A stretch of DNA of 64,000 nt, from assembly GCF_014837235.1 (NCBI RefSeq), contig NZ_JACYFT010000003.1, positions 81,660 to 145,659 of the forward strand. Direction: 5' to 3'. The translations under genes were made by a program, and so were the position numbers. The DNA is from Limnohabitans radicicola (GTDB lineage: Bacteria > Pseudomonadota > Gammaproteobacteria > Burkholderiales > Burkholderiaceae_C). The notes below the pieces were generated by a model that made no database searches, was not told the DNA's origin, and saw nothing but the letters and a program-made list of their open reading frames with translations. Positions 31,380 to 63,641 of the stretch are shown here, piece by piece. Each line of letters opens with the position of its first letter. Position 1 is the stretch's first letter.

Positions 31380-31792
31380 GCCTGACGGAGGTCACTGCCG
31401 TTCCGCAGACCCAGCAAACTTTTCTGGCCTTCGATTACGGCCTCAAGCGCACTGGCGTGGCCGTGGGCAACCGCCTGATGAAAACAGCGACACCGCAGGG
31501 CACGATTGCCGCCGAGGGCGACGCCCGGTTTGTCAAGATCGCTGAGCGCATCAAAGAGTGGCAACCCGACGCGCTGGTGATCGGCGTGCCCACCCACCCC
31601 GATGGCGCTGAGCATGAGAACACCTTGCGTGCGCGCAAGTTCGGCCGTCAGTTGCGCGGCCGCTTTGGCCTCGCCGTGTACGAGGTGGACGAGCGCTACA
31701 CCACGACCGAGGCGCATTCGTATGGGGCCAAAGATGCCGATGCGGCCGCAGCGGCCATCATTCTTGAACAATTTTTAAGGAATCTGCCATGA
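31376..31792 (+). CDS. ruvX: Putative pre-16S rRNA nuclease / Holliday junction resolvase RuvX (YqgF)
   Basis: RNase H-fold nuclease of 138 residues. The three acidic positions are visible: Asp in FDYGLKRTGVAVG, Glu in YEVDERYTTTEA, and Asp in KDADAAAAAIIL. E. coli YqgF finishes the 5' end of 16S rRNA; older annotations call it a Holliday junction resolvase. It overlaps yqgE and pyrR by 4 bases each, giving a tightly coupled yqgE-ruvX-pyrR unit. Confidence 0.93.
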   Translation: MSLTEVTAVPQTQQTFLAFDYGLKRTGVAVGNRLMKTATPQGTIAAEGDARFVKIAERIKEWQPDALVIGVPTHPDGAEHENTLRARKFGRQLRGRFGLAVYEVDERYTTTEAHSYGAKDADAAAAAIILEQFLRNLP

Positions 31793-32289
31793 GTGCTTTG
31801 GCGTTGGATGCAGAGGCCCTGTACCAAGAACTGCTGCGCGGTGTGCGCAGCTTGTGCGGGGCGGATACCCGCCTGGTGGGCATCACCTCGGGCGGCGCCT
31901 GGCTGGCCCAGCGCCTGCAGCGTGACCTGGGCCTGGTCGGGGAGTCGGGTCAGGTGTCCTCGGTCATGCACCGCGACGATTACGCGCAGCGTGGTCTTGC
32001 GGCCGGCGGCCAGACCAGCCTGCCCTTCGAGGTCGATGGGGCCGACATCCTGGTGCTTGACGATGTGCTCTACACCGGTCGCACCATCCGCGCCGTGCTC
32101 AACGAACTCTTTGACTACGGTCGACCCGCCCGCGTGCAGCTGGCCGTGTTGGTGGACCGTGGAGGGCGCCAGTTGCCGGTGCAAGCCGACTACGCCGCCG
32201 CCCGCGTGGCCCTGCCCGAGACGCAATCGCTGGCGCTGGCCCGCGATGCGGCCGGGAAGTTCAGTTTTGACGTGGAGAACAAAGCCTGA
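31789..32289 (+). CDS. pyrR: PyrR-type phosphoribosyltransferase
   Basis: Phosphoribosyltransferase-fold protein of 166 residues. The PRPP-binding loop [19 protein letters not shown] and the segment [25 protein letters not shown] match PyrR. In Bacillus PyrR is an attenuation regulator of pyr mRNA with weak uracil phosphoribosyltransferase activity. In betaproteobacteria the RNA-binding role is not established, and no attenuator hairpin with a T tract is seen before pyrB. It overlaps ruvX by 4 bases and precedes pyrB by 16. Confidence 0.93.
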
Positions 32290-32305
32290 TCGAGGTGAGA
32301 ACAAC

Positions 32306-33271
32306 ATGCTCTACAAACGCAACAACCCCCAACTCAACAAGAACGGCGAGCTGATCCATCTGCTCTCCACCGAAGGCCTGTCCAAGGACATCCTGACCCA
32401 CATCCTCGACACCGCATCGAGTTTTGTGAGTGTCAACGACCGCGAGGTCAAAAAGGTGCCCCTCTTGCGCGGCAAAAGCGTGTTCAACCTGTTCTTTGAG
32501 AACAGCACCCGCACGCGCACCACTTTCGACATCGCGGCCACCCGTCTGTCGGCCGACGTCTACACGCTCGACATCGCACGCTCTTCGGCCAGCAAGGGCG
32601 AGTCGCTGCTCGACACCATCGCCAACTTGAGCGCCATGGCCGCCGACATCTTTGTGGTGCGCCACAGCGAGTCGGGCGCGCCCTACCTGATCGCCCAGCA
32701 TGTGGCACCCCATGTGCACGTGGTCAACGCCGGTGACGGGCGCCATGCCCACCCCACGCAGGCGCTGCTGGACATGTACACCATCCGGCACTACAAAAAA
32801 GACTTTGCCAACCTCACCGTGGCCATCGTGGGCGATGTGTTGCACTCGCGTGTGGCGCGCTCAGACATCCATGCGCTCACCACCCTGGGCTGCGCCGAGG
32901 TGCGCGTCGTCGGCCCCAAAACGCTGGTGCCCGCCGACATGGCCCAGATGGGCGTGCGCGTCTTCAATAATCTGGAAGAGGGCATCAAGGATTGCGACGT
33001 GGTCATCATGCTGCGCCTGCAAAACGAGCGCATGAGCGGTGCGCTGCTGCCCTCCAGCCAGGAATACTTCGAAAGCTTTGGCCTCACGCCTGAAAAACTG
33101 CAACTGGCCAAGCCCGACGCCATCGTCATGCACCCCGGCCCGATCAACCGCGGTGTCGAGATCGACTCGGCAGTGGTGGATGGCCAGCAAAGCGTGATCC
33201 TGCCGCAGGTGACTTTTGGCATCGCGGTGCGCATGGCGGTGATGAGCATCGTGGCCGGTAACGAAGCCTGA
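32306..33271 (+). CDS. pyrB: Aspartate carbamoyltransferase catalytic subunit PyrB
   Basis: Condenses carbamoyl phosphate and aspartate, the committed pyrimidine step. The 321-residue protein has the carbamoyl phosphate motif [11 protein letters not shown], the [12 protein letters not shown] helix, [13 protein letters not shown], and [12 protein letters not shown] near the C-terminus. The start at [16 protein letters not shown] is standard; the frame is open upstream but overlaps pyrR. No regulatory subunit (pyrI) is present. The adjacent inactive dihydroorotase is the expected structural partner for this class of enzyme. Confidence 0.97.
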
Positions 33272-33284
33272 GGGGAACAAGAAC

Positions 33285-34586
33285 ATGAAGATCCTGATTC
33301 AAAACGGCCGCGTGATCGATCCCGCCAGTGGCCTCGACCAAAGCGCCGATGTGGCGATCGCGGCGGGCTGCATCGTGGCGGTGGGGCCAGCGCCTGCCGA
33401 CTTCTCGCCCAACCGCGTGATCGACGCCAAAGGCTGCATCGTGGCCCCGGGCCTGGTGGACCTGGCGGCGCGCCTGCGCGAACCCGGCCAAGAGCACGCG
33501 GGCATGCTCGAGAGTGAAATGGCCGCGGCCGTGGCCGGTGGCGTGACCAGCCTGGTGTGCCCACCCGACACCGAGCCGGTGCTCGATGAGCCGGGGCTGG
33601 TGGAGATGCTGCGTTACCGCGCCGAAAAACTGCACCAGGCCCGTGTGCTGCCCCTGGGCGCACTCACCGTGGGCCTGAAGGGCGATGTGTTGACCGAAAT
33701 GGGCCAGCTCACGGCCGCCGGTTGTGTGGGCTTTTCGCAGGCCGAGGTGCCGATCCCCAGCACCCAGGTGCTGCAACGCGCCTTGCAATACGCCAGCACC
33801 TTTGGCTATGCCGTGTGGCTGCGCCCGCAGGAGTTGCACCTGGGCAAGGGCGTGGCCGCCAGTGGCCCGCTGGCCACGCGCATGGGTTTGTCGGGCGTGT
33901 CAGTGGCGGCCGAGACGATCGCACTGCACACGATTTTTGAGCTGGTCCGCGCCACACAAGCGCGTGTGCACCTGTGCCGCATCAGCAGCGCTGCAGGTGT
34001 GGCCCTGGTGCGCCAGGCCAAGGCCGAGGGCCTGCCGGTGACCGCCGACGTGAGCATCAATTCGCTGCACCTGACCGACGCCGACATGGGCTACTTTGAC
34101 AGCCGCGCACGCCTCACGCCCGTGTTGCGCCAGCAGCGCGACCGCGACGCGTTGCGCGCAGGCCTGGCCGACGGCACGCTCGACGTGCTGGTGTCCGACC
34201 ACACCCCGGTCGATGCCGATGCCAAGGCCTTGCCTTTTGCCGAGGCTGAGCCTGGCGCCACCGGCATGGAGTTGCTCTGGAGCCTGGCGCTCAAGTGGGG
34301 CCAGGAATCGGGTCTGGCCTTGCCACAGGTGCTTTCCCGCATCACGGCCGATCCGGCCCGCGTGCTGGGGGCATCGCTGGGCACCTTGCAGGATTCGGTG
34401 GGCCGATTGGCTGTTGGCGGCGCGGCCGATGTGTGCGTGCTGTCCGATCAGGGCCACTGGCCGGTGACGGCCGAGGTGCTGCGCAGCCAGGGCAAGAGCA
34501 CACCGTTTTCGGGTTATGAGTTGCCCGGTCGCGTGCTGGCCACGGTGGTGGGCGGCCATGTGGCGTTCGAGGCCGCCAAGGCCTGA
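33285..34586 (+). CDS. Dihydroorotase-like pseudoenzyme (PyrC'/PyrX)
   Basis: Protein of 433 residues with the full dihydroorotase fold but without its metal centre. The active motif DxHxHLREPG is here D59-L-A61-A62-R63-LREPG, so both metal-binding histidines are lost. The later His positions are also changed (LCRISSA instead of a HxSt motif; VSINSLHL instead of TPHHL), while SDHTP is kept. Such PyrC' proteins do not catalyse but form a dodecamer with PyrB in Pseudomonas and are needed for its activity. It lies 13 bases after pyrB. A functional dihydroorotase must be encoded elsewhere. Confidence 0.9.
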   Translation: MKILIQNGRVIDPASGLDQSADVAIAAGCIVAVGPAPADFSPNRVIDAKGCIVAPGLVDLAARLREPGQEHAGMLESEMAAAVAGGVTSLVCPPDTEPVLDEPGLVEMLRYRAEKLHQARVLPLGALTVGLKGDVLTEMGQLTAAGCVGFSQAEVPIPSTQVLQRALQYASTFGYAVWLRPQELHLGKGVAASGPLATRMGLSGVSVAAETIALHTIFELVRATQARVHLCRISSAAGVALVRQAKAEGLPVTADVSINSLHLTDADMGYFDSRARLTPVLRQQRDRDALRAGLADGTLDVLVSDHTPVDADAKALPFAEAEPGATGMELLWSLALKWGQESGLALPQVLSRITADPARVLGASLGTLQDSVGRLAVGGAADVCVLSDQGHWPVTAEVLRSQGKSTPFSGYELPGRVLATVVGGHVAFEAAKA

Positions 34587-34610
34587 GTCCAGACGCCCGC
34601 AGCGCGCACC

Positions 34611-35357
34611 ATGAAGTCTATGCGGGCCATCTGGAAACTGCTGCGCGGCCTGTGGCATGTGCTGTTGGGCCTCTGGTGGATCCATGCGCACTTCCCGCGA
34701 CTGAGCCCAGACCAGCGCGCCATGCGCGTGCAGGCCTGGTCCTTGCAGTTCTTGGCGCTGTGGGGCATCCATGTGAAGGTGCTGGGGCAACCGGTGGTGG
34801 CGGGGCCGGCTCTGATCGTGGCCAACCACATCTCGTGGCTCGACATTTCGGTGATCCATGCGGCGCGGCACTGTCGCTTTGTCTCCAAATCGGACATCCG
34901 TGACTGGCCGCTGGTGGGCATGTTGGCCGCGGGTGCTGGCACGCTCTTCATCGAGCGCAGCAGCCGCAAAGATGCGCTGCGCATGGTCAAGGACATGTCC
35001 GAAGCCATGAAAGAGGGCGATGTGGTGGCCGTTTTCCCGGAGGGCACCACCAGCGATGGCCGCGACTTGCTGCCGTTTCATGCCAACCTGATCCAGTCAG
35101 CGATCCAGGCCGATGCCCCGGTGCAGCCCATGTCACTCAAGTTTGTCGACGCGCACACGGGTGAGCCCAGTTTTGCCCCTTGCTACATCGGAGACGACAC
35201 GTTGATCGGCTCGATGTGGCGAACTCTCACGGCGCCGCCGATTTTGGCGGTGGTTCACTTTGGTGCGCCTCAGCGTGCACAGGGCCGTGAGCGACGGCAA
35301 TGGGCCAAGGACTTGCGCCAGGACATCATCCACCTGCGCGACACCGATTTCCCTTGA
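34611..35357 (+). CDS. Lysophospholipid/1-acylglycerol-3-phosphate acyltransferase (PlsC family)
   Basis: Membrane-associated acyltransferase of 248 residues. The catalytic HxxxxD motif is H73-D78 in VANHISWLD, with the second block FISKSD-like RFVSKSDI, the third FIERSSRKDA and the fourth FPEGTTSDG. A hydrophobic N-terminal segment (LWHVLLGLWWIHAHF) anchors it. PlsC makes phosphatidic acid; OlsA-type homologues acylate lyso-ornithine lipid. The OlsB-like gene 23 kb away raises that possibility, but sequence does not decide. It is the last gene of the yqgE-ruvX-pyr operon. Confidence 0.88.
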   Translation: MKSMRAIWKLLRGLWHVLLGLWWIHAHFPRLSPDQRAMRVQAWSLQFLALWGIHVKVLGQPVVAGPALIVANHISWLDISVIHAARHCRFVSKSDIRDWPLVGMLAAGAGTLFIERSSRKDALRMVKDMSEAMKEGDVVAVFPEGTTSDGRDLLPFHANLIQSAIQADAPVQPMSLKFVDAHTGEPSFAPCYIGDDTLIGSMWRTLTAPPILAVVHFGAPQRAQGRERRQWAKDLRQDIIHLRDTDFP

Positions 35358-53187: not shown

Positions 53188-53325
53188 TGCGCTGCAGCGG
53201 GGGCGGTGTATACCGCATCCACCCCGCTGCTCAGGTTTTCAGGGTATCGGCAAACCCTTGTGGCTTTCCCACAATCGAGGCATGTCCCAGACTGCCCCTG
53301 ATCAGATTGCCAAGCGTTGTGGGCC
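53188..53325. other. Intergenic region before the Lon/FtsH genes
   Basis: 138 bases. It contains a short hairpin GCGGT-GTAT-ACCGC (53202-53215) and no good promoter hexamers or Pho-type repeats. Confidence 0.3.
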
Positions 53326-55800
53326 ATGACGAGCGTGCGCCTTTCCGCAGACCAGTTGCGCCGCCGGGTGGACCCGGCGGCACTGGGTTTTCGCGACACG
53401 TCTGAACTGCTGGAGCAGGCTTTGCCCTGGATCGGGCAGGCCCGAGCAGAAACGGCCGCACGCTTTGGCCTCAGGCTGGACCAGCCGGGCTACAACCTGT
53501 TTGTGCTGGGTGAGGTGGGCAGTGGTCGCACCACTTTGCTGCGTCAGATGATGCAAGCCGAAGCCGTGCTGCGGCCTGTGCCGCCGGATCTGTGTTACCT
53601 GCACAACTTTGAGACCCCCGAGCATCCCCGGGCCTTGCGCTTGCCCGCAGGCGATGGGCGTTTGCTTCGCCAATTGATGGCACAGTGGGTCAAACGCCTG
53701 GGCAATGACATTCCCAAACGGCTGCTGGAGCCGGACTTCAAGACCGAGAGCGATCGGATCGAAAAAGCCTACAAGACCGAAGAAGACATGGCCTACGCTG
53801 CCATCAGCGCGTATGCCGAGTCCAGGCACTTCAGCCTGATGCGAGAGCAGGGGCACATGGTTTTCAGCTACCGCGATGAAAAAGGCGAGCCGATGACGGC
53901 CGGGCGCGCCATGACGCTCCCGCACGAGCAGCGTGCCGAGATCGACAGCGCTGAAGCCGATTTGCGCGATGAGATCGGCCGCTTTCTGGAAAAAACCCGC
54001 TCCATGGAGCATGTGATGAACGAGGGTTTGGCGGCTTTGCGCAGGCAGGTGATCAAACCCTTGATCGACCATGAACTGCAAGCCATCCGCAATGCCTTGC
54101 GCAAGCCCATCAAGGAGTCGGACAAACTGACGGCTTATCTGGAACGTGTGCAGCAAGAGGTGCTGGAAAACCTGGAGTTGTTCCAACCGGGCGACGAGGA
54201 AGAAGCCCGCCTGGAGGCGCTTGAAAGCGTCTTGTCTCGTTTGGGCGTGAATGTGGTGGTGGATAACCATGGCCTGGTCGGTGCGCCAGTGATCCAGGAA
54301 GACAACCCTTTGTTTCGCCAACTGTTTGGCAGCATTGAATATGACTCGGGCGGGGACATGCTGGTCACGGATTTTTCGCGCATCCGTGCAGGCAGTTTGC
54401 TCAAGGCACATGGGGGATTTCTGATGCTGCATCTGCGCGATCTGCTGGCCGACGCCCCGGTCTGGGAAAAGTTGTACCGATTCCTGCGCAGTGGTCGTCT
54501 GCAGATTGAAGAGCCAGGCGCGATGTATTCGCCCATTGCTGCCGTGTCCCTGGAGCCCGATCCAGTGGATGTGCAGGTCAAGATCGTTTTGATTGCATCG
54601 GTCGACGAGTTCTACGCGGTCCAGGAAGCCGATCCTGAATTCGCCCGCAGGTTCCGTTGCAAAGTGGATTTTGTCGACAGCTTTGTCGCGACCCCCGAAT
54701 CGCTGCAGGCCACGGCAGTGTTTGTGTCCCACACCTGCCGCGAGAAAGGCTTGCCGCATTTTGACGCACAGGCCGTGGCCGTGCTGATCGAGGATACCCA
54801 CCGTCAGGCCGGGGACCAAAGTCGGCAGAGTGCCATCTTTGCCCGCTCACAGGCCCGGGTGATTGAGGGGGCTGCTCTGGCGCAGCAGCGCGGTGCAACG
54901 CTGGTGCAGGCGCAGGATGTGCAGGCGGCCCTGCTTTCTCATCGGCATCGGCACGACCATGCAGAGCAGCGCTTGCAAGAAGCGATTGCCGAAGGCGACC
55001 GGCTGCTGGATGTGGCCGGGCAATGCACAGGGCAGATCAATGGGCTCACGGTGGTGGACCTCGGCGACCACAGTTTTGGACTGCCCGTGCGCGTGACGGC
55101 GCGCACCCATGCGGGCGAAGAGGGCTTGCTCAACATGGAGCGCGAGGTCGAGATGTCGGGGCCCATCCACGACAAGGGGGTGCTGATTTTGCACAGCTAC
55201 CTGTCCTCGCTGTTTGCGCACATGGCCCCGTTGGCCATGAATGCCGCCGTGGTCTTTGAGCAGGAGTACAGCGGCGTGGAGGGCGATTCTGCTTCGTGCG
55301 CCGAGTTGTACGCCTTGTTGTCGAGTTTGGCCAATGTGCCGCTGGCGCAGGCGATCGCGGTGACCGGCGCCTTGAACCAGCGGGGCGAAGTCTTGCCTGT
55401 GGGGGGCATCAACGAAAAAATCGAAGGCTATTTCCGCAGCTGTGAGTTGCTGGGCCTGAACGGTCAGCAAGGTGTGCTGATGCCCACGCGCAACCTGCGC
55501 CACCTGATGCTGTCTTCGTCTGTGGTGCAAGCCGTGGCGCAAGGGCGCTTTCATGTCCATGCGGTGGCCAGTGTCGCTGACGGCATGACGCTGTTGTGCG
55601 GTTTGCCGTTTGGGGAGTTGGGTGCGGACGGGTATGCGCCGAACACCTTGCTGGGACGGGTTCAGGCCACACTGAAAGCCTACCGCGCAGCCTGTGAGGC
55701 GATTGACGGCAGGCATGCCAGACGGCATATGACCAAGGCTCGCCCAGCCAGACCAGAACGTGGCGTGTCTTCGACTTTGCAGGCAGGCAGACGCCCATGA
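53326..55800 (+). CDS. Lon-family ATP-dependent protease (AsrA/LonB-like)
   Basis: AAA+ serine protease of 824 residues. The C-terminal S16 protease domain has the Lon catalytic pair S655 (GDSAS) and K698 (INEKIEG), 43 residues apart as in Lon, and the surrounding [11 protein letters not shown] and [17 protein letters not shown]. The N-terminal part lacks the Lon substrate domain and instead has a long helical insert in the ATPase region (residues about 200-290, Glu/Leu/Arg-rich). The Walker A is GEVGSGRT at 62-69 with Arg in place of Lys, so ATP use should be tested. It overlaps the ftsH-like gene by 4 bases. Confidence 0.88.
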
Positions 55801-57647
55801 GCCGCAAGCAGCTGTGGACCTGGCTTTATGGCTTGTTGGCGCTGGCGCTGGTTCTGGGGGTGCAAACCTTTTGGCAGGGGGCTCAGCAGACCGAGACAGT
55901 GCCTTACAACCAGTTTGAGCAAGCCCTGGTGGAAGGCAAGGTCCAGGAGGTGATCGTCACTGACCAGCATTTGCTTGGCCGCCTCAAGACCCCGGAAGGG
56001 ACCAAGACCCAGTTGTCGACCGTGCGGATCGAGCCCGAGCTGGCGGCCTGGCTCGGTGGTTTCAAGCTGCCCTACAGGCGAATCACCGAGAGCGGATTTT
56101 GGCGCGACGCTCTGTCGTGGGTGTTGCCATCCCTGGTTTTCTTTGGCCTCTGGTGGCTGGTGATCCGCCGTGTGGTGTCGCAGCAAGGCGGCATGGGCAG
56201 CTTGATGCGCATCGGCCAGAGCCAGGCCAAGGTGTATGTGATGCACGACACCGGCGTGACCTTTGCCGATGTGGCCGGGGTCGATGAAGCCAAGCAGGAA
56301 TTGGTCGAGGTGGTGGATTTCCTCAAGCACCCCATGGATTACGGCCGCCTGGGGGCGCACATCCCCAAAGGGGTGTTGCTGGTCGGGCCGCCGGGGACGG
56401 GCAAGACCTTGCTGGCGCGGGCGGTGGCCGGTGAGGCAGGGGTGCCATTTTTCTCGATGTCGGGCAGCGAGTTTGTTGAACTGTTTGTGGGTGTGGGTGC
56501 ATCGCGCGTGCGTGACCTGTTTGAGCAAGCCAGGGCCAAGGCCCCGGCCATCATCTTCATAGACGAACTCGATGCCCTGGGCCGTGCCAGGGGGGCGTTT
56601 CCGGGTCTGGGCGGGCACGATGAAAAGGAGCAGACCCTCAACCAGCTGTTGGCCGAGATGGATGGTTTTGATGCGTCCGCAGGCGTGATCATCCTGGCGG
56701 CCAGCAACCGCCCCGAGATTCTGGACCCGGCGCTCCTGCGTGCCGGGCGCTTTGACCGTCAGGTTTTGGTGGACAAACCCGACAAGAAAGGCCGGCTGGA
56801 CATCCTGCGCGTTCATGCGCGCAAGGTCACGCTGGCGGCAGACCTGGCGCTGGAGGAGGTGGCTGCCATCACACCTGGATTCAGTGGCGCCGATCTGGCG
56901 AACCTGGTCAATGAAGCGGCGATCGTGGCCACTCGGCGAAAGGCAGACAGCGTCACGCTGGCCGACTTCACGGCGGCCGTGGAGCGCATCGTGGCCGGGC
57001 TTGAAAAGCGCAATCGCCTGCTCAATCCTCAAGAGCGCAGGGCCGTCGCTTTCCATGAGATCGGCCATGTGCTGGTGGCACTGGCTTTGCCGGGCAGCGA
57101 TCCTGTCCACAAGGTGTCGATCATTCCGCGGGGCATTGGCTCGCTGGGCTACACCTTGCAAAGGCCAACCGAAGACCGCTACCTGATGACCATGGAGGAG
57201 TTGCAACAAAAAATCTGTGTCTTACTGGGAGGACGTGCAGCCGAGAAACTGGTGCTGGACAGTTGGTCGACAGGGGCTGCCGACGATTTGGTCAAAGCCA
57301 CTCAAATCGCACGTGACATGTCCATGCGTTACGGGATGGACGAAACGTTGGGCTGCGTGAGTTACGACAGCCCTCATCCCGCCTGGATCAGCGTCCCGGA
57401 CGACATGGGTATGCGAGCACCTTTGGCCGAGTCGACACAAAAAACCATCGACGAGGCGGTGCGCCGCATCGTCATGCAGGGCTATGAGCAAGCCCTGTCC
57501 ATTCTCAAGCAGCACCGCGCCTTGCTGGAGCGTTGCGCGCGGGAGTTGTTGGAACAGGAAACTCTTGACGCCCAGGCGCTGGCGCGTTTGACGGAGGCGT
57601 TGCGTTCGCCGGAGTTGGAGCAGAAGAGCTTGTTTGAAACCCAGTGA
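55797..57647 (+). CDS. ATP-dependent zinc metalloprotease, divergent FtsH paralogue
   Basis: Membrane AAA+ protease of 616 residues. Two membrane helices (about 6-26 and 102-124) flank a short periplasmic domain. Walker A GPPGTGKT lies at 197-204, Walker B in [10 protein letters not shown], and the second region of homology is [20 protein letters not shown]. The zinc motif is H420-E-I-G-H424 where standard FtsH has HEAGH, with the third ligand Asp in [15 protein letters not shown]. Residues in the ATPase core are otherwise canonical. It is probably an accessory FtsH, not the housekeeping copy usually beside rlmE. It is translationally coupled to the Lon-like protease (ATGA). Confidence 0.93.
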
Positions 57648-57668: not shown

Positions 57669-57686
57669 CTGACACGTGAGTGTCAT
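57669..57686 (+). promoter_or_regulatory. Possible Pho box before the OlsB-like gene
   Basis: CTGACAC-GTGA-GTGTCAT matches the double CTGTCAT repeat with 4-base spacer at 11 of 14 positions. The same bases also form an inverted repeat TGACAC/GTGTCA, so a different regulator or an RNA hairpin is possible. No good -10 box follows at the expected distance. Confidence 0.4.
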
Positions 57687-57733
57687 GTGTGAAATGGAAG
57701 ATGCAGGTTCATGTCATGCACGAAGGACCTGTT

Positions 57734-58576
57734 GTGAAAGAGTTGCCTAACCCCACTTTCGCCCTATCTCCCATCCAGCTGCCCCGGGGGTCACTTCATC
57801 CAGGATCAACTGCGTCACCTCAAGCGTTCGTGGTGGCCACTGCCCCGTCAGGCATCCAGGTCAGCTGGGCCCGTCACCTCGATGAAGTCCGTGAAGCACA
57901 ACGCCTGAGACACCATGTCTTTGCTGGCGAGATGGGCGCGCGCCTGGACACCAGCATCGCGGGCCACGACGTCGACCTTTTCGATGACTACTGCGAACAC
58001 CTGCTGGTGCGCGATGCCGCCACGGGGCAGGTGATCGGTACCTACCGTGTCTTGACGCCTGCGCAGGCCAGGCGTGCAGGCAGCACCTACAGCGACACCG
58101 AATTCGATTTGACCCGTCTGCGCGGTCTGCGCGAGCGGATGGTGGAGCTGGGTCGCAGCTGTGTGCACCCTGACCATCGACATGGCGGCGTGATCATGGC
58201 TCTGTGGGGGGCATTGACAGAGTTCATGCTGCGCAACCAGCTGGATGTGATGATCGGATGCGCCAGCATCCCCATGTTGCACAACGGGGTGGTGAGCGGC
58301 GATCTGGCGGCCAGCATCTGGCACCAACTCAAGCAGACCCACCTGGCCCCGATCGAATGCCATGTGCTGCCACGCTTGCCATTGCCAGTAGACGAACTCG
58401 ATCAGACCCTGCGCACCGAACCGCCAGCCTTGATCAAAGGTTACTTGCGTCTGGGGGCCAAAGTGCTGGGCGCACCCGCTTGGGACCCGGACTTCAATAC
58501 CGCCGACTTGCCCATGATGATGCGCATCGTCGACATGCCCGCCCGCTACAGAAAGCACTTCATGGGGGCTGCCTGA
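57734..58576 (+). CDS. OlsB-like GNAT N-acyltransferase (ornithine lipid synthesis)
   Basis: Acyltransferase of about 280 residues in the OlsB/Acetyltransf_5 group, which transfers a 3-hydroxyacyl chain from acyl carrier protein to the alpha-amino group of ornithine. Characteristic blocks are EAQRLRHHVFAGEMGARLD, DLFDDYCEHLLVRD, GTYRVLTPAQARRAG, ELGRSCVHPDHRHGGVIMAL and GCASIPM. The GTG at 57734 has AAGGA six bases upstream and is preferred; ATG codons at 57716 and 57701 are alternatives. The next gene starts in its stop codon (TGATG). Membership of a phosphate-stress operon is inferred from plcP and the glycosyltransferase. Confidence 0.82.
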   Translation: MKELPNPTFALSPIQLPRGSLHPGSTASPQAFVVATAPSGIQVSWARHLDEVREAQRLRHHVFAGEMGARLDTSIAGHDVDLFDDYCEHLLVRDAATGQVIGTYRVLTPAQARRAGSTYSDTEFDLTRLRGLRERMVELGRSCVHPDHRHGGVIMALWGALTEFMLRNQLDVMIGCASIPMLHNGVVSGDLAASIWHQLKQTHLAPIECHVLPRLPLPVDELDQTLRTEPPALIKGYLRLGAKVLGAPAWDPDFNTADLPMMMRIVDMPARYRKHFMGAA

Positions 58577-59469
58577 TGAAGCCACAAACCCAGTGGGTGG
58601 CCCGAGCCATGCCGACAGGTTTGTCCAGTGACCTGCAGCATCCCGCTGTACGCGTTGCAGATGTGTCCGATGATGAATCGCCTGCTGGTCGCCAACGCCT
58701 GCGGGCGATTTTCATTTCAGACTTGCACATCGGAACACCAGGCTTTCAAGCGGATGCCCTGCTCGAATTTCTCAAGGCCCACTCCAGTGACACGCTGTAT
58801 CTGGTGGGGGACATCGTGGACGGTTGGCAGCTGCGTCGCCGCTGGTTCTGGCCCCAAAGCCACAACGATGTGGTTCAGAAACTGCTGCGGCGTGCGCGCA
58901 AGGGTTGTCGCGTCATTTATGTGCCAGGCAATCACGATGAATTTGCGCGGGCTTTTGCAGGGCACGCCTTTGGTGGCGTGGACATCCAGCATGAGACGGT
59001 TCACACCACCGCACGAGGCCAGCGTCTTTGGGTCATCCACGGTGACCACTTTGACGGCGTGATCCAGTGTGCCAAATGGCTGGCCTATGTGGGGGACTGG
59101 CTCTACGAACTGACACTCAAGATCAACCGTCACCTCAACCGATTGCGTGGTCGCCTCGGTTTGGAGTATTGGTCTTTGTCTGCTTACCTCAAGCACAAGG
59201 TCAAGAAGGCTGTGAATTTCATCTCTGATTTTGAGGTGGCTGTGGCGCATGAAGCCCGCCGCCGTGGCTATGACGGGGTGGTGTGTGGTCACATCCACCA
59301 CGCCGAGATTCGCGATGTCGATGGCGTTCTTTACTGCAACGATGGCGACTGGGTAGAGAGCCGAACCGCGCTCGTGGAACATATGGATGGTCGGCTGGAG
59401 ATCATCCACTGGGGCTCGGGCCCGGTGACTGTGAGCAGCTTGGCTTTGCCGCAAAGGATCACCGCATGA
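58576..59469 (+). CDS. plcP: PlcP-like phospholipase C / metallophosphoesterase
   Basis: Calcineurin-type phosphoesterase of 297 residues. Metal ligands are D49 and H51 (ISDLHIGT), D79 (LVGDIVDGW), N119-H120 (GNHDE), and the histidines of VIHGDHFDG and CGHIHHAE. The blocks YLVGDIVDGWQLRRRWFWPQ, SHNDVVQKLLRRARKG and LAYVGDWLYELTLKINRHLN closely resemble PlcP of Sinorhizobium. That enzyme removes the phosphorylated head group from phosphatidylcholine and other phospholipids under phosphate limitation. Automatic annotation would call it UDP-2,3-diacylglucosamine diphosphatase (LpxH). Co-occurrence with a glycosyltransferase and OlsB supports PlcP. It overlaps both neighbours. Confidence 0.85.
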   Translation: MKPQTQWVARAMPTGLSSDLQHPAVRVADVSDDESPAGRQRLRAIFISDLHIGTPGFQADALLEFLKAHSSDTLYLVGDIVDGWQLRRRWFWPQSHNDVVQKLLRRARKGCRVIYVPGNHDEFARAFAGHAFGGVDIQHETVHTTARGQRLWVIHGDHFDGVIQCAKWLAYVGDWLYELTLKINRHLNRLRGRLGLEYWSLSAYLKHKVKKAVNFISDFEVAVAHEARRRGYDGVVCGHIHHAEIRDVDGVLYCNDGDWVESRTALVEHMDGRLEIIHWGSGPVTVSSLALPQRITA

Positions 59470-60542
59470 AACTCGCACTCATCACCGACGCCTGGCATCC
59501 CCAGGTCAATGGCGTAGTGACCACCCTCAACGAGCTGGTCAACGCCTTGCAAGGCATGGGGGTGCAAGTCCACGTGATCCACCCGGGTCAGTTTGAACAC
59601 CGCCCCTGTCCTGGCTATGCGGGCATCGATCTGGCGGTGCGCCCAGCCAAAAGACTGACACGGCTGCTGGACAACTTGCAGCCCGATGCAGTCCACCTGG
59701 CGACCGAGGGTCCGCTGGGCTGGGCTGGCCGAAAAATTTGTCTCCAAAAAAACTGGGCTTTCAGCACGGCATTTCACACCAAATTTCCAGAAATTCTGAA
59801 TTCCGCCCTGCGCATTCCTTTGTCGTGGGGGTACGCCCTGTTCAGGCATTTCCACAAGCCATCGTCGGCGGTCATGGTGCCAACGCAGGGCGTGCTTGAC
59901 ATGCTGCAGCAGCGTCAATTTCGACAGCTCAAGCCTTGGACGCATGGCGTGGACACACACTTGTTTGGATTTCACGCACAGCCATTGGCGCTGGAGGGGT
60001 TGGAGCACTTGCCGCGGCCATTGTGTTTGTTCGTCGGCCGGCTTTCCTATGAAAAGAACATCGAGGCCTTTCTGAAGCTGCCTGTGCAAGGCACCAAAAT
60101 CGTATGCGGTGTCGGCCCACTGGAGACCAGTCTGAAAAGCAGATACCCTGATGTGCACTGGATGGGGGTATTGCCCCGTGAAGAGCTGGCCAGGGTGTAC
60201 GCCGCCGCTGATGTGTTTGTGTTCCCATCGCGCAGTGAAACTTTTGGTTTGGTCATGCTCGAGGCCATGGCCACAGGCACGCCCGTGGCCGCCTATCCGG
60301 TCGACGGCCCTTTGCAGGTGTTGGGTGCAGACCATGGCAAGCCTCAGGGGGGTGTGCTGGATGCCGACCTGCAGACCGCAGTCGCGCGAGCGCTGACCGT
60401 GCCCCGGATGCAGGCCCGCCAGCGTGCTGAGGCGTTTGACTGGGACGCAGCGGCACGACTTTTTGTCAATCACCTGGTGTCTGTGCACGCCAGGCAAGGC
60501 CACATGCTGTCAGCTGTCACAGTACTGTCACCAAGGACATGA
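59466..60542 (+). CDS. Glycosyltransferase family 4, likely diacylglycerol glycosyltransferase (Agt-like)
   Basis: GT-B glycosyltransferase of 358 residues. The N-terminus ITDAWHPQVNGVVTTLNEL is the acceptor-domain signature of the MgtA/SqdX/Agt group. TEGPLGWAGRKICL and AFHTKFPEI follow, and the donor domain has FVGRLSYEKNIEAFL and the E-x7-E motif SETFGLVMLEAMATGTPVAAYPVDGP. In many bacteria this gene lies beside plcP and makes glycolipids from the diacylglycerol it releases. The sugar (hexose or uronic acid) cannot be told. It overlaps plcP by 4 bases. A Pho-box repeat lies inside its last codons, before ppk. Confidence 0.86.
   Translation: MKLALITDAWHPQVNGVVTTLNELVNALQGMGVQVHVIHPGQFEHRPCPGYAGIDLAVRPAKRLTRLLDNLQPDAVHLATEGPLGWAGRKICLQKNWAFSTAFHTKFPEILNSALRIPLSWGYALFRHFHKPSSAVMVPTQGVLDMLQQRQFRQLKPWTHGVDTHLFGFHAQPLALEGLEHLPRPLCLFVGRLSYEKNIEAFLKLPVQGTKIVCGVGPLETSLKSRYPDVHWMGVLPREELARVYAAADVFVFPSRSETFGLVMLEAMATGTPVAAYPVDGPLQVLGADHGKPQGGVLDADLQTAVARALTVPRMQARQRAEAFDWDAAARLFVNHLVSVHARQGHMLSAVTVLSPRT
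60507..60531 (+). promoter_or_regulatory. Pho box before ppk
   Basis: CTGTCAC-AGTA-CTGTCAC (60514-60531) matches the PhoB double repeat (CTGTCAT, 4-base spacer) with only the final T to C changes. A further CTGTCAG directly precedes it at 60507-60513, giving three CTGTCA units. AACAAT (60542-60547), ten bases downstream, is a plausible -10 box, and the ppk ATG follows at 60582. Confidence 0.78.
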
Positions 60543-60581: not shown

Positions 60582-62657
60582 ATGGCTGAATCGGCCACCA
60601 CCGCAGACTTGGCGAATCCGCCGCTCCCGCCCTTGCTGGATCGTGATCTGAGCATCCTGGCATTCAATGAGCGGGTGTTGGATGGTGCCAGACGCCACGA
60701 TGTGCCGCTGCTCGAGCGCTTGCGTTACTTGTGCATTGTGTCTTCCAATCTGGATGAATTTTTTGAGGTGCGGGCTGAGCCACACGTGGCAGCAGCCCAG
60801 CAGCACATTGATGAGGGGGCTTTGAGCATCCAAAGCCTGCAGTCGATCACGACCCGTGCGCGTGCCATGGTGGATGAGCAGTACCGCCTGTACAACCACG
60901 AACTGCTGCCCGCGTTTGAAAAAGAAGGCATCCGTATCCTGTCACATGGTGAGCGCAATGTGGCTCAAAGGCGCTGGGTCAAGACTTATTTCAACAAGGA
61001 TGTCAAACCCTTGCTGATGCCCGTCAGCCTCGACCCTTCACACCCCATGCCCCAGGTGGCCAACAAGTCGCTCAATTTCATTGTTCACCTCAAGGGCAAG
61101 GATGCCTTTGGCCGTAGCAATGAAATCGCCATCGTCAAGGTTCCCCGCGTTTTACCCCGTTTGATCCGTATGCCTGACCGCTTGAGCAACGGTGGCACAG
61201 CCTTCGTATTGCTGTCGAGTGTGATTCGCGCGCATTTGTTCGAATTGTTTCCAGGTCGTGAGGTGGATCAGTTTTCGCAATTCCGGGTCACACGTCACTC
61301 GGATCTGGCGGTGGACGAGGATGAAGTTGTCAATTTGCGCACAGCCTTGCGCCAAGGCTTGCAACACCGCCATTACGGACAGGCTGTTCGTCTTGAAGTT
61401 TCTTCCAACTGCTCGCCACAGCTGTCGGACTTCTTGTTGCAGCAGTTCGACTTGCCCGTCCAGGCATTGTTCCGGGTCAATGGCCCGGTCAATCTGGTGC
61501 GTTTGATGCAACTGATCGATTTGAGTGCCAAGCCTGCCTTGCTGTTTGCGCCTTACCAGGCCAGTTTTCCGCGCGATGTGCCCAAGTCAGGAGCCATCAT
61601 GGCACGTATGCGGCAAGGCGATGTGCTTATCCATCAGCCTTTTGAGAGTTTTGATGGCGTGCTCGCGTTCCTTGGTGAAGCCGTCGATGACCCGCAGGTG
61701 CTGACCATCCAGCAAACCATTTACCGCACGGGCAGCGATCCAGCCATGATGAACTTGCTGCGCGAGGCCGTGCGTCGCGGGAAAGAGGTCACGGCAGTGG
61801 TCGAACTCAAGGCCCGCTTTGACGAAGAGGCCAACATCAATTGGGCCGAGCAACTCGAATCCATTGGTGTGCAGGTGGTCTATGGTGTGGTTGGTCTCAA
61901 GACCCACGCCAAAATGCTGCTGGTGACCCGACGGGAGGGGCGACATTTGAGGCGCTACGGCCACCTGTCGACGGGTAATTACAACCCGCGCACCGCGCGT
62001 CTGTACACCGACATCAGCTATTTGACGGCGGATCCGAAAATCACAGGTGACATGGAGCAGCTGTTCGTGCATCTGGCCAGTCAAAATCCGTTGCCGAGAA
62101 TGCACCGTCTGTGCGTAGCGCCGTTCAACCTGCATGCACGCATGCTGCGTGCCATCGGCGACGTCAAAAAGGCTGCGGAGCGGGGAGAGGATTCCCGCAT
62201 TGTATTGAAGATGAACGCCTTGACCGATGCGCCCCTGATCGAAGCCTTGATGGAGGCCGGTCAGTCAGGTGTGCGGATCGATTTGATTGTGCGTGGCGCT
62301 TGCATGCTGCCAGCTGGACTGCCAGGGAAAACAGACAACATCAAGGTGCGCTCGGTCATCGGGCAGTTTTTGGAACATTCGCGAGTGTCATATTTCAGGG
62401 CTGGTGTGGAGGAGACACTTTACCTCTCGAGTGCCGACTGGATGAACCGTAACATGATGCGGCGCATCGAGGTGGCTTGGCCTGTGCTGGACCCGGTCTT
62501 GCGGCAGCGCATCATCGACGAGTGCTTGCTGGCCTACATGCATGACCAGCATGATGCCTGGGACATGCAGTCCGATGGTCAATACGTGCGAGCGGCCCTT
62601 CTGCACCCTGGACCAGGCGCACAAGCCGCCCTGATGGCGCGTTACGCTAAAACCTGA
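60582..62657 (+). CDS. ppk: Polyphosphate kinase PPK1
   Basis: Makes polyphosphate from ATP through a phosphohistidine intermediate. The 691-residue protein has normal PPK1 length with N, H, C1 and C2 domains. Markers are RDLSILAFNERVLDGA, DEFFEVRAEPHV, the phosphohistidine region VVGLKTHAKMLLVTRREG, YGHLSTGNYNPRTARLYTD and NMMRRIEVAWPV near the end. The ATG at 60582 is preferred over an upstream TTG at 60564. It has its own Pho-box promoter inside the preceding glycosyltransferase gene and is followed by sixA after 17 bases. Confidence 0.97.
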   Translation: MAESATTADLANPPLPPLLDRDLSILAFNERVLDGARRHDVPLLERLRYLCIVSSNLDEFFEVRAEPHVAAAQQHIDEGALSIQSLQSITTRARAMVDEQYRLYNHELLPAFEKEGIRILSHGERNVAQRRWVKTYFNKDVKPLLMPVSLDPSHPMPQVANKSLNFIVHLKGKDAFGRSNEIAIVKVPRVLPRLIRMPDRLSNGGTAFVLLSSVIRAHLFELFPGREVDQFSQFRVTRHSDLAVDEDEVVNLRTALRQGLQHRHYGQAVRLEVSSNCSPQLSDFLLQQFDLPVQALFRVNGPVNLVRLMQLIDLSAKPALLFAPYQASFPRDVPKSGAIMARMRQGDVLIHQPFESFDGVLAFLGEAVDDPQVLTIQQTIYRTGSDPAMMNLLREAVRRGKEVTAVVELKARFDEEANINWAEQLESIGVQVVYGVVGLKTHAKMLLVTRREGRHLRRYGHLSTGNYNPRTARLYTDISYLTADPKITGDMEQLFVHLASQNPLPRMHRLCVAPFNLHARMLRAIGDVKKAAERGEDSRIVLKMNALTDAPLIEALMEAGQSGVRIDLIVRGACMLPAGLPGKTDNIKVRSVIGQFLEHSRVSYFRAGVEETLYLSSADWMNRNMMRRIEVAWPVLDPVLRQRIIDECLLAYMHDQHDAWDMQSDGQYVRAALLHPGPGAQAALMARYAKT

Positions 62658-62674
62658 ACACCAGTGGAGTGGGC

Positions 62675-63136
62675 ATGGACTTGATCTTGTGGAGACATGC
62701 AGAGGCGCTCGATCTGGAAAGCCAGGAAGACGACATGTTGCGCCCCTTGACGAGCAAAGGAGAAAAGCATGCCGCCCGCATGGCCCAATGGCTGGACAGG
62801 CAACTGCCTGAGGGCACCCGTATCCTCTGCAGCCCAGCGGTGCGTGCGGAGCAAACTGTGCGCGCCTTGCAGCGTAAATACAAGGTTCGCGATGCCCTGT
62901 CACCAGGTGCAAGCGTGCAAGATGTGCTTGAAACAGCCCAATGGCCGGATGCGAAATTTCCGGTGCTCCTGGTCGGACACCAGCCTTCATTGGGGGCGGT
63001 AGCGGCTCAGCTTCTGGGTATGGCTCACGGCACTTGCCCGATCCGCAAAGGTGCTGTCTGGTGGCTGCGCAGTCGACAGCGCGACGGGGTGGAGCAAACG
63101 GTCATTTTTTCGGTGACCACCCCGGAGAAACTGTAA
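62675..63136 (+). CDS. sixA: Phosphohistidine phosphatase SixA
   Basis: Histidine phosphatase-superfamily enzyme of 153 residues. The catalytic RHG-like motif is R7-H8-A in ILWRHAEAL, with the second His in LLVGHQPSLG, plus TSKGEKHAARMAQWL and ILCSPAVRAEQT. SixA dephosphorylates histidine-phosphotransfer domains such as ArcB and PtsNtr proteins. It commonly sits beside ppk/ppx in betaproteobacteria. It is the last rightward gene of the ppk unit and is convergent with the Lys/Ala-rich protein gene. Confidence 0.92.
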   Translation: MDLILWRHAEALDLESQEDDMLRPLTSKGEKHAARMAQWLDRQLPEGTRILCSPAVRAEQTVRALQRKYKVRDALSPGASVQDVLETAQWPDAKFPVLLVGHQPSLGAVAAQLLGMAHGTCPIRKGAVWWLRSRQRDGVEQTVIFSVTTPEKL

Positions 63137-63155: not shown

Positions 63156-63641
63156 TCAGTTCTTGCCTGGACGGCCCGTTTTCAATGTCGGAACGGCGGC
63201 CAAGGCTTTTTTGAAGGCGACATCCGAGGCAGCGTTCAGCAGCATCAGTCCAGCACGAATCAGCTCACTCTTCTTGATGTCGAGTCCCAGGCTCAATGCT
63301 TTTTTCTTCATATCGCCAAGTTGAGCAAATTCGTTTTTCGGAATGGTAAAGCTGTCACGCACCACTTTGACTTTTTTGTCTTTGATAGCTGGTTCTGGGG
63401 CTTTCTTTTGGGCTGGGTCCTGACGCCCTGTGGTCGCCTTTTTCGCTTTTGCAGGGTCCACTGGCTTGGCATTTTGGGACGGAGCCGCGTTTTGGGATTT
63501 CACGGCCAATGCTTTGGCGACATTCGCGCCTTGGGCTTTGATTGGGGCAGGTTTATTGGCCGATAAGGACTTTGAGGTCGATGCAGGTTTTTTGACGGGA
63601 GCCGCCGATTTGGCGTTTGGCGCAGTGACTTTCTTTGTCAT
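63156..63641 (-). CDS. Lys/Ala/Pro-rich protein with a ribbon-helix-helix-like C-terminal domain
   Basis: A 161-residue, very basic protein. The first 95 residues are low-complexity Lys/Ala/Pro/Ser (histone H1-like: VKKPASTSKSLSANKPAP, PAKAKKATTGRQDPAQKK) and probably disordered. The last 65 residues look folded, KVVRDSFTIPKNEFAQLGDM followed by KSELIRAGLMLLNAASD, and resemble a strand-helix-helix DNA-binding domain; this is inference. Similar proteins are seen in Comamonadaceae without known function. GAGGA precedes the ATG. A near-perfect palindrome lies 13 bases upstream, suggesting autoregulation. Confidence 0.72.
   Translation of the reverse strand: MTKKVTAPNAKSAAPVKKPASTSKSLSANKPAPIKAQGANVAKALAVKSQNAAPSQNAKPVDPAKAKKATTGRQDPAQKKAPEPAIKDKKVKVVRDSFTIPKNEFAQLGDMKKKALSLGLDIKKSELIRAGLMLLNAASDVAFKKALAAVPTLKTGRPGKN

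Follow-up and report, generated by a model that had tools for sequence, protein, structure and literature searches.

An olsB-plcP-agt operon in Limnohabitans radicicola with a predicted role in phospholipid replacement at low phosphate

In a stretch of 64,000 nucleotides from the 3.34-Mb genome of Limnohabitans radicicola (assembly GCF_014837235.1, contig NZ_JACYFT010000003.1, positions 81,660 to 145,659; G000:C11:81660-145659 in our numbering and called the window from here on), three overlapping genes were found to encode an OlsB-like N-acyltransferase, a PlcP-type phosphoesterase and an Agt-like glycosyltransferase. With good confidence, this olsB-plcP-agt operon is predicted to swap phospholipids for two kinds of phosphate-free lipid when phosphate is low. 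A first-pass annotation of the same DNA had proposed a replacement of phospholipids by two routes at once, ornithine lipids and glycolipids. At the level of sequence this proposal is supported, with the restrictions that OlsA is predicted to be encoded outside the operon and that the glycolipid arm is an optional part of the system in relatives. The surprise attached to it was overstated, because both routes have already been reported together at low phosphate in Methylosinus, where glycolipids occur alongside ornithine lipid (PMC9239053), and in Agrobacterium (PMC3972451).

According to the proposed mechanism, PhoR-PhoB would switch on olsB-plcP-agt at low phosphate via a site at position 57669. 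PlcP would cleave membrane phospholipids to diacylglycerol and a phosphorylated head group, the phosphate of which could be recovered, and Agt would glycosylate the diacylglycerol to a glycolipid. OlsB would couple a 3-hydroxy fatty acid to ornithine, OlsA, encoded elsewhere, would attach the second fatty acid to form ornithine lipid, and glycolipid and ornithine lipid together would take the place of the phospholipids. The polyphosphate kinase gene ppk, behind its own exact Pho box, would serve to store the recovered phosphate as polyphosphate. These roles are given to PlcP, Agt, OlsB and OlsA because of their characterised homologues (PMC3972451, PMC9239053, PMC8528852). The observations comprise homology-based gene identities, the order of the genes and their overlap, their conservation, the Pho-box-like sites and the pho genes nearby; from these we infer transcription, enzyme activities, ornithine as the substrate, the sugar and the change in lipids.

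The three genes lie on the forward strand between 57734 and 60542 and overlap, just as the first pass had described, in a TGATG junction between olsB and plcP (58574-58578) and an ATGA junction between plcP and agt (59466-59469). The start of olsB was corrected to GTG 57734, which is the likely one because it is preceded by GAAGGA, because 4 of 6 listed relatives begin at the same point (with MKELPNPTFA or MKELPSPTFA), and because an earlier GTG (57680) collides with the Pho-box-like site at 57669-57686. Pfam matches were obtained across the operon, namely PF13444 for olsB, PF12850 and PF00149 for the phosphoesterase, and domains of glycosyltransferase families 4 and 1 (GT4 and GT1) for the glycosyltransferase. 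Directly downstream follow ppk and a sixA-type gene.

Conservation of this arrangement was followed in the best 80 relatives of a longer match list, which is a biased set, as well as in a family sample of 100 genomes, own genome included, and an order sample of 200 genomes. Many of the related loci end near the operon, and the absence of a neighbour there is weak evidence. The PlcP of the window is closest to that of Limnohabitans and other Comamonadaceae, with 78-86% identity in the 14 best loci. Within the family sample, plcP was present in 72 genomes, olsB in 79 and agt in 38. Adjacency of olsB and plcP on the same strand was seen in 30 of the 66 genomes carrying both, and all three genes are consecutive in 24 of 100, the own genome being counted each time. 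Neighbours were compared in 77 rows, consisting of the window and 76 named relatives after four of the best 80 had been removed because of stops; olsB and plcP are adjacent in 65 rows and not adjacent in nine, and three are undecidable. The neighbourhood of olsB and plcP is more than chance.

Phosphate control of olsB-plcP-agt is a prediction supported by Pho-box-like sites and by the location next to pho and pst genes. The sole exact match to CTGTCAYNNNNCTGTCAY in the whole genome is situated at 60514-60531, within the final codons of agt and 5' of ppk. The site 5' of olsB is one of 32 genome sites with at most two mismatches, and 24 of the 30 best of these that were checked lie inside an open reading frame of more than 500 bases on either strand. 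Conservation of the sites was counted in 81 regions (80 relatives and the window), of which 12 were dropped for olsB, 24 for ppk, one for plcP, 28 for agt and 27 for sixA. Sites with up to three mismatches were found 5' of olsB in 34 of 69 regions, window included, and 5' of ppk in 46 of 57, and dinucleotide shuffles yielded 1.9% and 3.7%, respectively. The control regions gave 5 of 80 for plcP, 0 of 53 for agt and 3 of 54 for sixA. With poorer start anchors the counts had been 35 of 69 for olsB and 42 of 57 for ppk, which are superseded by the present ones.

Just beyond the window, on the downstream side, ppx, two alkaline-phosphatase-like genes, pstS-pstC-pstA-pstB, phoU, phoB and phoR are located. 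The two phosphatase-like genes, which stand in tandem between ppx and pstS (L174 2463-5300), score under the model cut-off, and PhoB of this genome reaches 330.8 bits with a cut-off of 296.2. In this 16-kb stretch, sites with three mismatches stand 5' of ppx, of the first phosphatase gene and of pstS, and the three remaining sites lie away from those starts. The olsB site, with its two mismatches, is therefore no weaker than the sites of the classic Pho genes in this genome.

OlsB is the weakest assignment of the three genes. The protein matches PF13444 with 120.6 bits (cut-off 22.4) and thus carries the GNAT domain, its top NCBIfam matches are OlsB models, and it is 33% identical to OlsB of S. 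meliloti over 261 columns. For the predicted structure, the best mean predicted local distance difference test score (pLDDT) was 78.6, with a spread from 78.6 to 40.2 among five models, and residues 1-38 and 73-80 lie below 50. The best model matches GNAT folds, among which the acyl-homoserine-lactone synthase LasI came second and the N-acyl amino acid synthase FeeM third, the matches being partial (template modelling score by query about 0.45). A search of solved structures with the protein returned a single match (E 0.35), and a search of a plasmid collection gave no Burkholderia match among 27 records.

The ornithine-lipid route, as predicted, cannot be completed by the operon alone, and OlsA would be supplied from elsewhere. 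A candidate is encoded about 22 kb upstream of the operon. Its product is the closest to OlsA among the three PF01553 proteins of the genome, its best NCBIfam match is OlsA (NF052553, 133.7 bits), exceeding the 103.5 bits of the general model TIGR00530, and it shares 36% identity with OlsA of S. meliloti over 140 columns. The gene is preceded by what we take, from the sequences, to be pyrR, pyrB and pyrC (window 31789-35357). Among the matches listed for the order, 124 genomes have both genes, and in 68 of them no more than 500 bp separate olsB from the best OlsA-like homologue, which has the same orientation; two order genomes (G031 and G076) have olsA-like, plcP, agt and olsB genes all within about 4 kb.

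Several results weigh against a phosphate-controlled operon with an ornithine-lipid arm. With up to three mismatches allowed, the genome contains 529 Pho-box matches versus 462 for the reversed pattern, and the window contains 7 versus 17 in shuffles. Matches of this quality are at chance level, and the Pho-box case therefore rests on position and conservation. In addition, the olsB site has two mismatches, and the 11 nearest relatives listed have four to five. The OlsB-like protein scored 161.7 and 145.0 bits with the OlsB models, under their cut-offs of 350 and 320; the OlsB-type identity proposed in the first pass thus agrees with PF13444 and with the best matches and falls outside curated membership, hence the name OlsB-like. 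In the same way, the olsA-like product stays under the OlsA cut-off of 300 bits and is hence called OlsA-like. Its gene is not linked to olsB in the own family (0 of 5 genomes of the order sample), and OlsA-like homologues with E 1e-15 or better are present in 186 of 200 order genomes versus 138 of 200 for OlsB, with 24 of 148 genomes listed for OlsA-like having no OlsB match. OlsA-like homology by itself is therefore not specific for OlsA. No Pho-box-like site was found beside the OlsA candidate in a scan of the window, and for this reason OlsB may be the regulated step of the ornithine-lipid route. Finally, among the matches listed, 78 order genomes (own included) have both olsB and plcP, and the two adjoin in just 5 of them; compared with 30 of 66 in the family, the arrangement is therefore largely a family trait.

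Given an identity of 33% to OlsB of S. meliloti and scores under the OlsB cut-offs, the N-acyltransferase might load another amino acid (glutamine, lysine, glycine or other) and give rise to a different aminolipid, as the related enzyme GlsB makes a glutamine lipid (PMC6298996). This is considered improbable, however, as the best curated matches are OlsB models (the direct comparison covered OlsB of S. meliloti) and the homologues adjoin an OlsA-like gene in the order genomes counted above. Moreover, in Rhodobacteraceae olsB lies near olsA and glsB near bamE (PMC6298996), and olsB of Burkholderia has been tied to ornithine lipid (PMC7814305). Ornithine lipid is retained as the predicted product. 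The S. meliloti reference record scores above the cut-offs for both enzymes, with 511.5 bits for OlsB (cut-off 320) and 432.7 bits for OlsA (cut-off 300). That record (CP090106.1, 3.7 Mb) is labelled plasmid pSymB and bears genes of chromosome type, mutS, metK and trpS among them; the label looks wrong.

The glycosyltransferase is of the Agt type, with a predicted diacylglycerol glycosyltransferase activity, and the family 4, Agt-like identity given to it in the first pass was borne out by homology and by linkage to plcP. It shares 45.4% identity with Agt1 of P. aeruginosa over 337 columns, and Agt1 has been purified and works with UDP-glucose and diacylglycerol (PMC8528852). Among the matches listed, 47 order genomes have both agt and plcP, and in 42 of these the two genes share a strand and are at most 500 bp apart. 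In the 77 neighbour rows, agt directly follows plcP in 51 and does not in 25, leaving one undecided; in 13 loci agt is missing and plcP reaches ppk within 311 bases. A quick tree, built from a single protein, requires at least 15 changes for agt and five for olsB adjacency; weak forks in it can inflate the agt count. In view of these changes, the glycolipid arm is a movable, optional part. The 25 rows (of 76 decidable) with no agt adjoining plcP, the number of changes, and five family genomes with adjacent olsB-plcP and no Agt match at 1e-50 would also suit a different outcome, in which phosphate mining and ornithine lipid formation proceed as predicted while the product of the GT4 enzyme is a different glycoconjugate and no bulk glycolipid replacement takes place. 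Set against the identity to a purified diacylglycerol-using enzyme and the close linkage to plcP, such an outcome is very unlikely, and Agt-type glycolipid formation is the reading retained.

The phosphoesterase is a PlcP-type phospholipase C in its predicted activity, as the first-pass annotation had proposed. The 297-residue protein shares 55.0% identity with PlcP of S. meliloti and 57.1% with PlcP of P. aeruginosa. Between these two the identity is 46.6%, close to the published 46% (PMC8528852), which supports them as yardsticks. The first pass had also named a phylogeny with LpxH and PlcP as a check, with a grouping with LpxH in a genome without another lpxH as the result that would contradict it. 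In the resulting tree of 30 rows, 28 PlcP-side rows split from the two LpxH rows (E. coli and own) with a support of 100/100, and the window protein falls together with both reference PlcPs into a set of 25 rows (97/94), which also includes a Parabacteroides homologue of unknown function. A tree forcing the window protein together with the two LpxH sequences was rejected in the approximately unbiased (AU) test (p-AU 0.003). The tree contains long branches, its LpxH side consists of two sequences, and it covers 30 of the 59 gathered rows, after exclusion of own-genome phosphoesterases that could not be aligned and of a row read in the wrong frame (L086).

Among 17 family sequences, D49/H51, G78-D79, G118-N-H-D121, H155-G-D and G238-H-I-H are invariant, and these motifs provide the metal ligands in enzymes of this fold. 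The window protein has GNHD where LpxH carries GNRD. GNHD is present in 45 of 49 PlcP-like rows, and the other four (L047, L056, L058 and L086) are read in the wrong frame, with no phmmer match and neither GNHD nor GNRD. Since three other phosphoesterases of the own genome also have GNHD, the motif separates from LpxH and is not specific for PlcP.

That the phosphoesterase is instead an LpxH-type lipid A enzyme, in a cluster for envelope biosynthesis unrelated to phosphate, is hardly credible: it shares the superfamily with LpxH (TIGR01854 at 35.2 bits, the solved LpxH structure 5wly at E 0.0006) and its homologues bear the public name 'UDP-2,3-diacylglucosamine diphosphatase', but the score is far under the cut-off of 190.35, characterised PlcPs score just as low (38.9 and 44.5 bits), a separate LpxH at C10:199168-199815 reaches 191.9 bits, just over that cut-off, and the tree split and AU test contradict it. 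An LpxH identity was accordingly rejected in favour of PlcP, and the first-pass expectation that automatic annotation would hide the gene as LpxH was right for its homologues. Two further observations concern PlcP-like genes elsewhere. The P. aeruginosa plasmid pHPA0698-2 (L154) bears a plcP-agt1 pair in apparently captured chromosomal surroundings. Distant PlcP-like phosphoesterases (33-39% identity) adjoin genes for ceramide glucosyltransferase (L177, L178) or a glycosyltransferase (L176), hinting at possible PlcP cousins tied to other lipids.

Table 1. Genes and Pho-box sites of the window, in window positions; functions are predicted by homology.
Feature	Position	Strand	Description
olsB-like	57734..58576	+	ornithine (amino acid) N-acyltransferase, 280 aa, start GTG 57734
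plcP	58576..59469	+	intracellular phospholipase C (metallophosphoesterase), 297 aa
agt-like	59466..60542	+	GT4 diacylglycerol glycosyltransferase, 358 aa
ppk1, polyphosphate kinase	60582..62657	+	NF003918 1039.6 bits, TIGR03705 855.1 bits, both above cut-off
sixA-type phosphohistidine phosphatase	62669..63136	+	TIGR00249 74.7 bits vs cut-off 74.5
olsA-like, candidate lyso-ornithine lipid O-acyltransferase	34611..35357	+	best NCBIfam match OlsA NF052553
Pho-box-like site, 2 mismatches, 5' of olsB	57669..57686	+	CTGACACGTGAGTGTCAT
Exact Pho box, within agt 3' end, 5' of ppk	60514..60531	+	CTGTCACAGTACTGTCAC

The reading frame of ppk1 is open from TTG 60564, with an ATG at 60582. Directly upstream of olsB, a gene for a LonC-like protease and one for an FtsH paralogue are located (window 53317-57647). 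LonC was found in 0 of 80 related loci and FtsH in 4 of 80 (L104, L112, L119 and L147; 39-50% identity), with flanks of about 5 kb or less. At 63156-63641 on the reverse strand, a lysine/alanine/proline-rich protein of 161 residues is encoded, which gave no Pfam or NCBIfam family match and has a homologue in 4 of 80 related loci.

Neither the enzyme types nor the two lipid responses are new, and the unusual part is the joint presence of the enzymes in one operon. Operons with predicted Pho boxes in which an Agt of family GT4 comes directly after PlcP have been reported from P. aeruginosa (PA3219-PA3218), Methylosinus trichosporium OB3b and marine bacteria (PMC8528852, PMC9239053, PMC4796936), PMC4796936 describing PlcP-glycosyltransferase operons with Pho boxes. 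In comparison with plcP-agt of P. aeruginosa, PlcP of the window is 57% and Agt 45% identical. The present operon differs from these in that olsB precedes plcP in an overlapping run and that ppk, sixA and the pho/pst genes follow. With the OlsB/OlsA pathway of S. meliloti and Burkholderia it shares OlsB- and OlsA-like genes and a Pho-box-like site 5' of olsB, and a Pho box was predicted at this place in 21 of 43 genomes of Burkholderia sensu lato (PMC7814305). Here, in contrast, olsB is joined to plcP-agt, the gene for the OlsA-like protein stands apart, and the identity to the S. meliloti enzymes amounts to 33-36%. In literature naming both genes, as far as its text was available and with supplements, subscription papers and preprints outside the scope, a joint olsB-plcP operon was not found described.

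Marine, rhizobial and methanotrophic bacteria and Pseudomonas are documented cases of lipid replacement at low phosphate, and according to a Baltic study of 2026, remodelling in freshwater appears less pronounced (PMC13086504). For work on such genomes, the public name of the PlcP homologues misleads. A more far-reaching proposal, which is tentative and rather doubtful at present, is that in Comamonadaceae phosphate mining by PlcP is wired to ornithine-lipid rather than glycolipid synthesis, with olsB-plcP as a stable PhoB-driven core, Agt as an optional add-on with many gains or losses, and ppk storing the mined phosphate. If true, aminolipid formation would be part of the same switch as PlcP, unlike in Ruegeria, where it was called independent of the PlcP pathway (PMC9938194). 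Provided that the predicted function holds, freshwater members of the Comamonadaceae, Limnohabitans included, would possess a genetically coupled system for lipid replacement, and natural strains that carry or lack Agt would allow a direct test of the value of the glycolipid arm.

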